Source: Geoglobus acetivorans (GTDB lineage: Archaea; Halobacteriota; Archaeoglobi; Archaeoglobales; Archaeoglobaceae). Taken from it: DNA of 64,000 bases. The notes beneath the pieces were generated by a model, which ran no database searches, had not been told where the DNA came from, and saw only the letters and a list, made by a program, of their open reading frames with translations. This document shows, piece by piece, positions 16,181 to 21,510 of the stretch; positions within the stretch are counted from its first letter, which is position 1, and every line of letters starts with the position of its first letter. The DNA is taken from assembly GCF_000789255.1 (NCBI RefSeq), contig NZ_CP009552.1, positions 1,488,001 to 1,552,000 of the forward strand, read 5' to 3'. The translations under genes were made by a program, and so were the position numbers.

Positions 16181-16242
16181 TACCAAAATATTTATATAGA
16201 AGTTTCATTCCACTAATGCCAGAGACCCGGGAGGTGAAAGGT
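16181..16242 (+). promoter_or_regulatory. thermosome promoter and ribosome binding site
   Basis: TTTATATA at 16191-16198 preceded by CCAAAA (a BRE-like element) forms a strong archaeal promoter. The transcript would start near 16220 and carries GGAGGTGA at about 16229-16236, correctly spaced for ATG 16243. This ribosome binding site is what excludes the upstream ATG 16216 as start. Confidence 0.65.
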
Positions 16243-17886
16243 ATGGCGGTACTCCAGGGTCAGCCTGTACTGATTTTGAAGGAAGGCACTCAGAGAACTG
16301 TTGGAAGGGATGCCCAGAGACTCAACATAATGGCCGCGAGGGTTATTGCTGAGGCTGTTAAAACAACTCTCGGTCCAAGAGGAATGGACAAGATGCTTGT
16401 TGACAGCCTTGGAGATGTTGTGATAACAAACGATGGTGTTACAATTCTGAAGGAAATGGACATCGAGCATCCAGCAGCAAAAATGGTTGTTGAAATCGCA
16501 AAGACTCAGGAGAACGAGGTAGGAGATGGTACAACAACTGCCGTGGTTCTTGCAGGAGAACTGCTCAAGAAAGCTGAAGAGCTGCTTGACAACGAGATTC
16601 ACCCGACGATCATCGCCAAGGGTTACAGACTTGCTGCAGAGAAGGCCATGGAGGTTCTCGACAACATTGCCATCTCAGTCGACCCAAGTGACGAGGAGAC
16701 GCTCAGAAAGATAGCAGCGACCGCAATAACAGGCAAGCACGCAGAATATGCCATAAATCATCTGAGCAGCCTTGTCGTTCAGGCAGTCAAAAAGGTCGCA
16801 GAACAGGTGAACGGAAAATGGGAGGTTGACGTGGACAACATCAAGATAGAGAAGAGACAGGGTGGCGGTGTCGAGGACACAGAGCTCATAGATGGTATAG
16901 TCATCGACAAAGAAGTCGTCCACCCGGGAATGCCCAAGAGGATAAAGGACGCAAAGATACTCGTGCTTAAGGCAGCCCTTGAAGTTAAGGAGACAGAAAC
17001 TGATGCAGAAATCAGAATAACCGACCCGGAGATGCTCCAGAGGTTCATCGAGCAGGAGGAGAAGATGATAAAGGACATGGTGGATGCAATCGCAAACACC
17101 GGAGCGAATGTCGTATTCTGCCAGAAGGGTATCGACGACCTGGCCCAGTACTACCTCGCCAAGGCAGGAATTCTTGCTGTCAGGAGAGTTAAGCAGAGCG
17201 ATATTGAAAAGATTGCCAAAGCAACAGGTGCAAAAATAATCACTGATCTCAGAGACCTCAAATCAGAGGACCTCGGTGAAGCAGAGCTGGTCGAGGAGAA
17301 GAAGATCGGCGACGAGGAGATGGTGTTCATCAGAGGCTGCAAGAATCCAAAGGCCGTGACACTGCTCGTGAGAGGAGGCACAGAGCACATCGTTGACGAG
17401 GTCGAGAGAAGCCTGACAGACTCTCTGAAGGTAACAAAGGCTGCAATAGAAAACGGAAAGGTTGTTGCCGGCGGCGGCGCACCTGAAATCGAGCTTGCTC
17501 TGAAGCTCAAGGAGTGGGCACCGAGTCTGGGCGGTAGAGAGCAGCTTGCAGCCGAGGCATTCGCATCAGCTCTCGAAGCCATACCAAGGGCGCTCGCAGA
17601 GAACGCAGGGCTTGACCCGATAGACATACTGGTCGAAATAAGAAAGGCCCATGAAGACGGTAATGCCTTCGCAGGCGTCGATGTCTTCGAGGGCAAAGTT
17701 ATTGACATGAAGGAGAAAGGAGTCCTTGAACCGCTCAGGGTGAAGAAGCAGGCCATAAGTTCAGCAACTGAAGTGGCGATAATGATCCTGAGAATCGACG
17801 ACGTCATTGCAGCAAAGGGACTTGACAAGGACAGTGACAAGGGCGGGGACGATTTCGACAGCGGTGACTCTTCAGATGATGAATAA
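16243..17886 (+). CDS. thsA: thermosome subunit (group II chaperonin)
   Basis: About 547 residues, the usual length of an archaeal thermosome subunit. It has [13 protein letters not shown], the ATP loop [15 protein letters not shown], and ends in an acidic, Gly/Asp/Ser-rich tail ([13 protein letters not shown]); the family's usual Met-rich GGM end is absent. It forms double rings that refold proteins at high temperature. Transcribed alone from a strong TATA promoter. Whether it is the alpha or beta subunit cannot be decided here. Confidence 0.96.
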
Positions 17887-17901
17887 CCCCCATTTTTTTC
17901 A

Positions 17902-18789
17902 TCAATTCATTTTCAAGTATTTCAGGACTTTTGCGAGTTTTTCATCGAAGTTTTCATCCCTGAAAAACGGGTCAGACAGAATGACCTGATCCACAATGGT
18001 CATCAGCTCTGAGAGTTTTTCCGCAAAGGCCTTCTGAGTTCCGCTCAGGGTGAATTTCTCCAGCAGGAAGTCTCTATGCTGAAGAAGCTCTATGAAATCA
18101 GATTCGTCGCTCAGGTCATCCCCCTTCTGTCTTTTCAGGATGAGCTTCAAAAGGTCTATTCTGGCAACACGCTCGAAAACATCTTGATATCCCATCTCAC
18201 TCAAAAAACTCTTGCTGCTGCCCATAACGAGGGCGGAGGCAAGAAGGAGGTCCTGCTCAAACTCTGATGGGAGTATCAGCGCCGGACCGTAAGCTGCGTT
18301 GAATTTGGCACAGGAATATCTCAGAGCCCAAGTAACGTGTTCGGGAGAGATGTGATTGAGCAGGATGCCATCAGCCGTATTTGAAAGTGTTCTGATTGCA
18401 ATTTTTCCCGTGCCCCCTGCAACAACGGGGAAATCATATTTCTCCTTGATTTTTCTTATGCATCTCTCTGCCATCCCGACGTTCCCACCGTCTCCAGCAG
18501 CAATGCCAACAATAATCCTATCTCCGTACTTTCTGAATTTTCCGAGCTCTGAAATAATGTTTCGGCATTTTGTCGCCCTCAGAATTCCAAAGCCCACGTT
18601 CAGTTCAGTATTCTCAGCGATGAGTTCGGCAACATGAAACGGACTCCTGAAAAAGTCTGAATCTCCTATCCAAACGGTTCCCACAACCTTTTCGGCCCTT
18701 ACAGCCTTTTCGATCAGAACTCTGTCCTCAAAGTCACCGTTTATATTGATGGCAATCCTACCAGTTTTCAATAAGCTTTCGAATGTCAT
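17902..18789 (-). CDS. divergent luciferase-like (LLM family) protein
   Basis: A 295-residue protein whose first 170 residues follow the bacterial luciferase/F420-dependent (Mer-like) TIM barrel: VWIGDSDFFRSPFHVAELIA, then NTELNVGFGILRA, then DRIIVGIAAGDGG and FPVVAGGTGK. The C-terminal 100 residues are helical and differ from typical members. It probably binds F420 or FMN, but no substrate can be named. Last gene of a three-gene minus-strand unit; it overlaps the RHH gene by 32 bases, so it is translationally coupled to a DNA-binding and an actin-like protein. Confidence 0.6.
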   Translation of the reverse strand: MTFESLLKTGRIAININGDFEDRVLIEKAVRAEKVVGTVWIGDSDFFRSPFHVAELIAENTELNVGFGILRATKCRNIISELGKFRKYGDRIIVGIAAGDGGNVGMAERCIRKIKEKYDFPVVAGGTGKIAIRTLSNTADGILLNHISPEHVTWALRYSCAKFNAAYGPALILPSEFEQDLLLASALVMGSSKSFLSEMGYQDVFERVARIDLLKLILKRQKGDDLSDESDFIELLQHRDFLLEKFTLSGTQKAFAEKLSELMTIVDQVILSDPFFRDENFDEKLAKVLKYLKMN

Positions 18790-19258
18790 CCTTATCGATT
18801 TCTTCTTTTTCCACCTTCATCTTAGGCCTGTAGATTTTCTGTTCAAGTTCCTTTGCAAGTATTTTCGCTGCAAGCTTTGCTACGCTGTAAACTTCCTCTG
18901 CATCCTCAAAAACCTTCTTTCCCCGTCTCTCCTCCTTATCCCTGTCCGAAAAATAGTTACAGAACAGGCATTCATAGGGGTGGAGGGGCTGAGGCTCGGA
19001 ATCTATGTCCAGTCTCGAATATGTCTCAAGAACACAGTATTTCCCGTCGCTGTACCTGCACTTCTTCGCCCTCTCCACACCCTTTTTTCTCGCAAAGTTC
19101 AGGAACTCAACCGCCTCTTTCGGAATGTCTCTCTTTCTCTTGAAGAAATACCATTCCAGAAGCTGGATCACGAATTCTGACGGAGAGACTCCAAGCTCCT
19201 CACATTTCCTCAACAGTGCCCTTTCGATGTCCGGAGGGATGTCAAATGCTATCTTCAT
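18758..19258 (-). CDS. ribbon-helix-helix protein with C-terminal Cys cluster
   Basis: A 166-residue protein. Residues 1-45 form a ribbon-helix-helix pattern: strand KIAFDIP, helix DIERALLRKCEELG, turn VSPSEF, helix VIQLLEWYFFKRK. The middle has Cys residues spaced CX6C (CRYSDGKYC) and CX2C (YECLFCNYF), fit for a zinc site or Fe-S cluster. The C-terminal part is charged and helical. It overlaps the actin-like gene by 4 bases, an arrangement like parMR, where ParR is also an RHH protein. The DNA target is unknown. Confidence 0.6.
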   Translation of the reverse strand: MKIAFDIPPDIERALLRKCEELGVSPSEFVIQLLEWYFFKRKRDIPKEAVEFLNFARKKGVERAKKCRYSDGKYCVLETYSRLDIDSEPQPLHPYECLFCNYFSDRDKEERRGKKVFEDAEEVYSVAKLAAKILAKELEQKIYRPKMKVEKEEIDKDDIRKLIENW

Positions 19259-20256
19259 TTCTTCTTCCGGCCCTTCTTTTCTTTCACATCAGCCTCGCCA
19301 CTTTTCTCAGTCTCACTCTCTGCCGCACTCTCGTTTCTGAACGTTCTCGCAAGCCTGTGGAAGCCCCTCGCATTGGCTGTTACGGGATCATCCGGCACCT
19401 TTATCTCGCCGATGTCTCTGAAATGCTCGGCGAATTTATCATACACGCCGGGCAGTTTCGCTCCGCCCCCACTCAGAACAATATTCTCAACAAGTGAGAC
19501 GGAAAGACCTTCGAGGAGCATGTTCACCCTGTTCACTATCCTCTCCACCCACTCCTCAATAACTCTGTTATATTCCTCCTGAATATCCTCTTTTCTGACG
19601 ACAATCTTCTTGCCTCCTCTGACCCTGCCTACCTCATACCCTTCCTGTGAAAGAAGCCGGGTCATCTCCTCAGGAGTTATGGAGATTCCAAACCTGTTCC
19701 TTATCGTCATCTCCATGGTGTCATAGACCTTGTCCACACCCACCAACATAGTGTCCCCCTTCAGATACTCCATATCAGCAAGAACCACCACATCAGTCGT
19801 GCCAAAGCCGATGTCGATGCAAACACCCGTTTTTAGATTCATGTATGCCATTGAGCCCACAGGTTGAGGAAGAAGCAGAACATCAGCACCTATTGCGTTT
19901 TTAAGCTCATCAACAAGCTCGGCCCTTTCCTTCTTGGAGCTTTTGACCGGTAAGCCTGTTGTTACAAAACATCCCCCATCTACCCCGAGGAGGTTGAGAG
20001 CGTGTTTTGCGAGTTCGATATAGGAGCCATGCATTAGCCTGCCCTCATGCAGAGGTCTCAGCACCTCAACGTTCTCCATGTTCTGCGCCATGTACGCAGC
20101 TTCATCACCAACGTAAACCTCACGCTCATCTGTACCCTTCAGACTCCACTCCTTCTCCTCACCGTAAACAACAAGGCTCGGGAAAATTATGACGTTCTCA
20201 CCATCCGCAGTTGCCTTGGTGTAGTTTGTTCCAATGTCAAGCCCGACGAATTTCAT
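19255..20256 (-). CDS. actin-like ATPase, ParM/Ta0583 type
   Basis: A 333-residue ASKHA-fold protein. The phosphate-1 loop GLDIGTNYTKA is at residues 5-15, phosphate-2 is in CIDIGFGTTDVVVL (about 157-170), and the adenosine motif is LSGGGAKLPG near residue 265. These fit the archaeal actin-like/ParM group rather than MreB, Hsp70 or crenactin. The last 25 residues are charged and end in KEKKGRKKK, a possible DNA- or membrane-contacting tail. It heads an operon with an RHH protein and an LLM-like protein. A filament-forming or segregation role is inferred. Confidence 0.72.
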   Translation of the reverse strand: MKFVGLDIGTNYTKATADGENVIIFPSLVVYGEEKEWSLKGTDEREVYVGDEAAYMAQNMENVEVLRPLHEGRLMHGSYIELAKHALNLLGVDGGCFVTTGLPVKSSKKERAELVDELKNAIGADVLLLPQPVGSMAYMNLKTGVCIDIGFGTTDVVVLADMEYLKGDTMLVGVDKVYDTMEMTIRNRFGISITPEEMTRLLSQEGYEVGRVRGGKKIVVRKEDIQEEYNRVIEEWVERIVNRVNMLLEGLSVSLVENIVLSGGGAKLPGVYDKFAEHFRDIGEIKVPDDPVTANARGFHRLARTFRNESAAESETEKSGEADVKEKKGRKKK

Positions 20257-20316
20257 GAGATTACATGGGCATGAAAATTAAAAAAGTTTGCATTAAAATA
20301 AAGAAAAACAGGGAGG

Positions 20317-21450
20317 TTACCTCGCCCCCTGGATAAATGCCTTCACGTCCTCCGGAACGCTTTTCTCTGCCGATTTGTTCAGCACACCATCGTCAAGGAA
20401 GTCAATCGTATCATAGATGATCTGCTTCACATACTCCGGGTTGTGGACGAATGCACCGGGTTCGCGAGCAAGCAGGTTGAGGTTGTACGCGGCTCCAAGA
20501 ACGTCCTTGCTCGGCCAGTCCTTGAACGCGTTTGCAAACGTGTGCTCCTCAGCATTGGGCGTGCCGTAGAAGTACGGATACCTCTCCTCATCGTAGTAGA
20601 TGCCCTTCTCCGCCAGAAGCTTTTCAATTGTCTTTAACGCAGATTCGTACTGAGATTTTCTCTCGTTTATCGTTGATATCAGGGCATTCTTGTCATCTCC
20701 GTGGCACTTCTTGCAGAGCGTGTCGTACGCCTTGATGTCCACTACAGCCCCATTTTCGACCACAACAGCCTCAAATGTGTGGTCTGCATTGTTCATGTGG
20801 CATGCGGTGCAGAGAGACCATCTATACTTGCGTGCGGGTTGGATGCAACATAGTCCCTTCCCTCAAACTCGTAGGGCAGAGTTCTGAAGATTATGCCTCC
20901 CGCAGCCAGATAGTGAGAGTTGAACGCTCCAAAGTGCTTGCCCTTTATCTCCTCAGCCAACTTTATCGCAGCCCCGCTGCTCCTTCCCGAATGGCACACC
21001 ATACACAGATTGGATTCGCCGAGATCCGGCACTGATGAAATCCTGTCCGCGGGCTCTGAATACTCCGCAACCCTCTCAAATTTACCGGGGTTTCTCAGCT
21101 CAAAGCTTCCATCCTCAACCCTGTGGCAGGCCCAGCAGTACAGGAATTCCTTCTGCTGTCCTGTCAGCAGGAAAGTGTTGTTCTCCGGGTTGTAGTTTTC
21201 AGGATCGCTTACAAAGTTTCTGAAACCCGTCGAGGTGTGGCATTTCTGGCAGGGCTGCCTGTTGGGCTGCTTGAAATCATAGTGGACCCATGCTGGCGCA
21301 TCTTCTTCGGTTACGGCCTTGGTGACGTCCTCCTCTTTCACCTCAAGCACATGCCCTCCATGGGCGGAGCGTCCCCACTCCTCCATCTTTGGAACTGCCC
21401 CTTTGGAGAAAGAGTTCCAAGCTTCATGCCCCCCACAACGCCATACCCGA
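20317..21450 (-). pseudogene. multiheme cytochrome c, frameshifted and 5'-truncated
   Basis: Coding sequence for one multiheme cytochrome is spread over three frames. The largest pieces are 20793-21386 (CQKCH, CWACH, CMVCH) and 20317-20796 (CKKCH). A fourth motif, CTACH, is readable just upstream of ATG 20796 in the second frame, so a one-base indel lies near 20820-20840. A further frame change near 21390-21410 separates KMEEWGRSAHGGH from the upstream GYGVVGGMKLGTLSPKG. No signal peptide is present. Either the gene is decaying or there are assembly errors. It diverges from an intact HAO-like cytochrome. Confidence 0.7.
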
Positions 21451-21510
21451 AAATCTTAGGGTTAACTATTAATAATTAAAAACATAAAAAAGAGTTTCGG
21501 GTGAATTGCC

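Follow-up and report, generated by a model that had tools for sequence, protein, structure and literature searches.

A family-wide pair of an actin-like ATPase and a ribbon-helix-helix/four-cysteine protein, probably of ParMR type, on the chromosomes of Archaeoglobaceae

In Geoglobus acetivorans, an actin-superfamily ATPase is encoded together with a small protein that combines a region resembling a ribbon-helix-helix (RHH) domain with a four-cysteine module. Comparison of genomes indicates that the two genes are a real pair throughout the family Archaeoglobaceae, and the pair is probably one functional unit of the ParMR type. The window analysed here is the whole stretch of 64,000 nucleotides between positions 1,488,001 and 1,552,000 of this single-contig genome (1,860,815 bases), and the features of the operon are collected in Table 1.

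Layout and conservation of the actin-RHH pair

The original prediction described a chromosomal parMR-like operon in which an actin-like ATPase is coupled by 4 bases to a small RHH protein and is followed by a third, overlapping gene. All three open reading frames were recovered, with the stop of the actin gene and the start of the RHH gene sharing 4 nt (ATGA) and the RHH gene overlapping the luciferase-fold gene by 32 nt. A thermosome gene (16216-17886) is oriented towards the three-gene operon. A 60-bp gap precedes the actin gene and contains a promoter-like box, which is conserved as TGCAAACNTTTTTAA in seven upstream regions of the Geoglobus group. In the nearby stretch 20317-21386, neighbouring ORFs of 159 and 197 aa each resemble a portion of a multihaem cytochrome; the close relative G025 (L095) encodes this cytochrome in a single ORF of 460 aa, and thus the copy in the window looks fragmented.

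Table 1. Coordinates of the operon features within the window
Feature	Position	Strand	Basis
Actin-superfamily ATPase, 333 aa	19255..20256	-	Pfam matches, invariant nucleotide motifs, trees
RHH + four-Cys protein, 166 aa, proposed ParR-like adaptor	18758..19258	-	AF2 model, 38-sequence alignment, co-occurrence with actin
Ribbon-helix-helix-like region, residues 1-43 of the small protein	19130..19258	-	VIA-align, Foldseek
Four-cysteine module, residues 67-105 of the small protein	18944..19060	-	Invariant Cys in alignment
C-terminal tail, residues 159-166 (IRKLIENW) of the small protein	18761..18784	-	Column entropy, terminal Trp
Mer-like protein with luciferase fold, 295 aa, loose companion gene	17902..18789	-	AF2 model, VIA match to Mer 1f07
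Probable BRE/TATA promoter of the operon (TGCAAACTTTTTTAA)	20278..20292	-	About 22 nt before the actin start; spotted by eye, no scan

Among 59 genomes of the class, 38 contain both the actin and the RHH gene, two the actin gene alone, three the RHH gene alone and 16 neither (Fisher P 1e-9, phylogeny ignored); both actin-only genomes are less than 90% complete. When only the 42 near-complete genomes are counted, 28 have both genes, none has actin only, three have RHH only and 11 have neither, such that every near-complete genome with the actin (28/28) also carries the RHH gene. In one RHH-only genome (G024) the RHH gene is cut by the end of a contig, and the actin gene may therefore simply be unassembled. 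The two genes are adjacent in 32 genomes (31 measured pairs and G020), with the exact 4-nt overlap in 22. They are both retained, though unlinked or on separate contigs, in six genomes (G009, G011 and G039-G042); by genus, such retention of both genes without linkage on the assemblies is seen in g12 and in two g3 genomes. Conversely, both genes are absent in more than one lineage, namely from all of g11 and from six of the 10 g13 genomes. At the hisC locus of g13, some genomes have actin-RHH without the Mer-like gene whereas others have only the Mer-like gene; with such opposite losses, the actin-RHH pair seems to have been lost as a unit. Judged from these arrangements, an ancestral trio may have stood beside hisC, an order still seen in g2, one or other part of which was later lost in g13.

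The three proteins show correlated pairwise distances (r 0.84-0.94), as is expected under vertical descent, and the actin is apparently a chromosomal, vertically inherited gene. Thus, the proposed chromosomal parMR-like pair was borne out, in that the actin and RHH genes are adjacent, co-occurring and conserved across Archaeoglobaceae. Neither of the two outcomes named beforehand as refuting the prediction came about: the actin-RHH pair extends across the family, and the small protein resembles an RHH domain. Conservation is weaker for the trio once the third gene is included.

The three encoded proteins

The actin of the window scores above the Pfam gathering thresholds of MreB_Mbl (62 bits), ALP_N (51 bits) and MreB-like_C (44 bits). 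In the alignment of 34 orthologues, D7, G9, T10, K14, D148, G150, G152, T153, T154, D155 and G263-265 are invariant, and the phosphate and adenosine motifs are intact in all 34. The orthologues are single-copy, share no less than 53% identity with the window protein and were found in Archaeoglobaceae only, among 344 genomes of the phylum searched at E 1e-8. The window protein has a charged, Lys-rich C-terminal tail; at this C-terminus (window 19255-19345) the orthologues finish with a variable acidic stretch and a Lys-rich, KKGKKKK-like tail.

Assignment to several known actin families was rejected by score. The protein falls below the salactin cut-offs of both Pfam (22.9 versus 27.1 bits) and NCBIfam (26.8 versus 400 bits) and scores under the family cut-off of volactin. 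It likewise reaches 57.6 bits against the NCBIfam cut-off of 400 for MamK and 58 bits against that of 293 for the cell-shape protein MreB, although the broad Pfam MreB_Mbl threshold is passed. Two maximum-likelihood trees grouped the window actin with plasmid ParM/PRTRC-D proteins and separated them from MreB and salactin (support 100/99 and 100/97). With long ParM branches and no MamK or Ta0583 in the trees, this position is support and not proof that the window actin sides with plasmid ParM rather than with MreB or salactin. The nearest plasmid proteins found by tblastn are mostly annotated as ParM/StbA or rod-shape proteins (22-28% identity), and most of their genes are followed by a short gene; two of these short genes, in Persephonella and Aromatoleum, also encode a Trp near the C-terminus. 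Pfam recognized no RHH domain in the small genes downstream of plasmid ParMs, and a search of viral contigs with the actin alignment gave no match.

The small protein was predicted to contain an RHH fold with an added four-Cys module, and both parts of this description were supported. The AF2 model, a monomer built from 38 orthologues, is of middling confidence, with a mean pLDDT of 74.6 and a pTM of 0.40. Its residues 1-45 superpose on CopASO, MazE6, Arc, RelB, DinJ and CopG with VIA Z scores of 5.2-6.8, values kept low by the small size of the domain (about 45 residues); the top-ranked structural matches of these residues are RHH or related antitoxin domains, and Arc is the best Foldseek match of the RHH-like region. 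This region comprises a presumed strand (1-8) and two predicted helices (9-22 and 26-43), and nearly every member has an acidic residue at position 6 of the strand presumed to contact DNA. The window protein alone matched no Pfam family, while RHH_1 and RHH_5 were weakly matched in some orthologues. The model continues with a helix (47-66) and the cysteine region, after which a long helix (106-140) and a linker of low confidence lead to a short helix at the C-terminus. C67, C75, C97 and C100 are invariant in all 38 orthologues with the spacing C-x7-C-x21-C-x2-C; no sequence family was recognized for this module in Pfam, NCBIfam or the PDB, and a PDB sequence search with the profile of the whole RHH protein gave nothing significant.

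Conservation is also pronounced at the very end of the small protein. Column entropy falls to 0.97 bit over the last eight residues, compared with 2.22 for the linker, 1.09 for the cysteine module and 1.05 for the RHH part, and 37 of the 38 orthologues end in Trp. The sole exception is G048, a genome about 99% complete with no detectable actin. The RHH gene of this genome (L132:6989-7444) has TTG (Leu) at the terminal Trp codon and a shortened linker, with the RHH part and the cysteines intact. In G032 (96% complete) the actin is likewise undetected, yet the terminal Trp is retained, and the link between this residue and the actin is therefore only suggestive. The terminal Trp also holds in genera without the third gene; thus, the conservation of the tail does not come solely from the overlap with that gene.

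When the profile of the small protein was searched against the 344 genomes of the phylum, just one weak, N-terminal match (G182) was obtained outside Archaeoglobaceae, and it was rejected as a homologue, being a different protein of 159 aa without the cysteine module and with no actin adjacent. Neither plasmids nor viral contigs contained a match to the RHH protein. A scan of genome contigs with the one RHH sequence as query, too insensitive for distant phyla, yielded just three loci, all from Geoglobus.

The third gene had been described as a divergent luciferase-fold protein, and its AF2 model agrees, being a confident TIM barrel (pLDDT 94.7) whose closest structure is methylene-tetrahydromethanopterin reductase (Mer; 1f07), with VIA Z 28.6 and 2.5 A over 268 residues at 22% identity. 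The fold is thus shared with Mer, and 33 of 34 Mer-like members weakly match the Mer model, but the window protein scores 39.8 bits against an equivalog score of 276. In the VIA alignment, which pairs model residue 10 with Mer residue 1, Asn15 takes the place of the catalytic Glu6 of Mer; this Asn is conserved in more than 90% of the Mer-like members, and Mer Gln178 is Thr or Ser in them. In Mer itself, Glu6 is catalytic and an E6Q variant keeps 0.4% of kcat (PMC11094777). A true Mer is encoded elsewhere in the same genome (G000:C1:325351-326331). The third gene thus encodes a Mer-like paralogue, which should not be a Mer enzyme.

The original prediction linked the luciferase-like protein to the filament system, but a role as its dedicated partner is not supported by the distribution of the gene. 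Across the 59 genomes, its presence is independent of the actin (P 0.14) and of the RHH gene (P 0.12). It occurs without actin-RHH in a whole genus (all five g11 genomes) and in G055; most of g3 lacks it, as do g13 genomes in which the pair is retained. The Mer-like gene is a loose companion and not a core part of the system. In g11, which is without actin-RHH, and in g4 it adjoins tyrS/aIF-1A (L145-L149, L153/L154), and at the same place g12 has an RHH-Mer-like pair.

Relation to known actin systems

The arrangement is closest to the type II plasmid partition systems (ParMRC) of R1, pSK41 and pB171, in which an actin ATPase is followed, in one operon, by a small RHH-like protein with a conserved C-terminal tail. 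ParR consists of an N-terminal RHH domain, a helical cap and an unstructured but conserved C-terminal tail that binds a hydrophobic pocket of ParM (PMC5016525). As modelled, the small archaeal protein follows the same plan, plus a cysteine module. Its conserved C-terminal tail is of the kind used by ParR to bind ParM, and the case for docking here, which rests on this pattern and on one natural loss, is suggestive. The archaeal actin also falls on the ParM side of the trees, with the long branches and the absence of MamK and Ta0583 noted above.

Several features separate the archaeal pair from plasmid ParMRC. It is chromosomal and apparently vertically inherited within one archaeal family, a four-Cys module is inserted in its putative adaptor, and its actin is strongly conserved (the identity of at least 53% given above), which is unusual for a ParM-type protein; such proteins are described as highly divergent (PMC12270681). 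Further, parC repeats were not found at the archaeal locus. A search for RHH-binding repeats near the operon had been proposed; no repeat family with three or more copies was found in 17800-21500, and repeat and tandem-repeat searches covering the operon and the window revealed no parC-like iterons or iteron arrays. Two-copy repeats were dismissed as parC candidates, being of the kind that chance would give, and no operator other than the promoter-like box was recognized upstream of the operon. Closeness to an origin was also discarded as an argument, as the nearest orc1/cdc6 gene is about 170 kb off. A ParMRC system requires parC iterons, and because these were sought and not found, the locus is not classed as ParMRC.

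Chromosomal actins with small partners have been reported in other organisms. Bacterial cParMR systems of Desulfitobacterium and Clostridium, not found in archaea, likewise join a chromosomal actin to a small putative ParR; for one of these two systems, too, no cparC conserved among strains was identified, and the passages considered mention no cysteine module (PMC12270681). Salactin is a chromosomal archaeal actin with a proposed role in DNA partition, and homologues have been reported in Archaeoglobi (PMC10746226). The window actin, also chromosomal and archaeal, belongs to a separate family, and the true salactin of this genome is a second actin (G000:C1:1054645-1055688; 408 bits versus the NCBIfam cut-off of 400). 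Outside the window, in the operon of the latter (L197:1646-4122; G000:C1:1054645-1057121), salactin is followed by a coiled-coil ORF and, overlapping this by 4 nt, by the gene of a MinD/ParA-type ATPase; the same archaeon thus has a second actin operon, with a MinD-like partner. CdrS, a haloarchaeal RHH protein, is also encoded in an operon with a cytoskeletal gene, but its co-transcribed partner is ftsZ2 and it acts as a transcription regulator (PMC7439475). No description of the archaeal actin-RHH pair was found in the open-access literature, which is weak as evidence of absence.

Proposed mechanism, alternatives and significance

By analogy with the plasmid proteins ParM and ParR, the archaeal actin and its RHH/four-Cys companion may well work as one chromosomal filament module in which the latter serves as a ParR-like adaptor, a reading that we consider somewhat the better bet. 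The actin ATPase would polymerize with ATP, and the RHH protein, as a dimer, would bind DNA through its N-terminal ribbon, while its Trp-ended C-terminal tail would dock on the end of the actin filament. DNA binding and tail docking together would couple DNA, either a chromosomal site or the operon's own promoter region, to the filament. The four-Cys module may bind a metal ion (Zn or an iron-sulfur cluster), stabilizing the fold or tuning the binding, and the actin-RHH filament module as a whole would move or anchor chromosomal DNA. Metal or redox sensing by the small protein is a conjecture from its four invariant cysteines.

It is also conceivable, though fairly unlikely, that the RHH protein controls transcription of the actin operon and perhaps of a regulon, the actin having a separate cytoskeletal role with no contact between the two. 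Repressors are common among RHH proteins, the four cysteines would be in keeping with a regulator that responds to metal or redox state, and the failure to find centromere-like repeats at the operon or in the window fits such a role, for which CdrS, controlling cell division genes, provides an archaeal precedent (PMC7439475). However, the near-perfect co-occurrence even of unlinked genes, their joint loss and a C-terminal tail that is conserved behind a variable linker but altered in an actin-less genome are better explained by a physical partner, and the regions upstream of the unlinked actin and RHH genes share AT-rich promoter-like boxes alone, no common operator being recognized.

An improbable alternative is that the actin forms a cell-shape or general cytoskeletal filament and that the RHH-like protein, having lost DNA binding, serves as a filament-binding or membrane factor. 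The highly conserved, chromosomal and apparently vertical nature of the actin would suit this, as would the role of volactin, another archaeal actin, in cell shape (PMC10869688) and the acidic residue at strand position 6 of the small protein. Against it, VapB-type RHH antitoxins with an acidic residue at the same strand position are generally regarded as DNA-binding, the actin is far from the NCBIfam cut-off for MreB, and conserved mreC/mreD-like neighbours were not seen. The idea that all three genes constitute one redox-sensing filament system, with the luciferase-fold F420/FMN-type protein as the sensor, draws on the overlap of the genes in several genera and on RHH-Mer-like linkage in more than one chromosomal context, but it is very improbable given the independent distribution of the Mer-like gene, which stands alone in g11 and G055 and is absent where the pair is kept, and its Asn at the catalytic position.

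To our knowledge, chromosome partitioning in most archaea is an open question. An actin with a ParR-like adaptor of DNA-binding type, conserved on the chromosome throughout one archaeal family, would be a direct, testable candidate for such a partition system. It is a bolder and quite unlikely proposition that a vertically inherited, chromosomal ParMR-type machine moves or anchors the archaeal chromosome, with the metal or iron-sulfur module of the adaptor placing the link between DNA and filament under the control of metal or redox state; we know of no cysteine module described for a ParR. The presence of salactin in the same genome means that two actin systems with different partners could be compared in one cell. 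If the ParMR-like reading of the actin-RHH pair is true, ParMR-type modules would extend from plasmids and a few bacterial chromosomes to the archaea.
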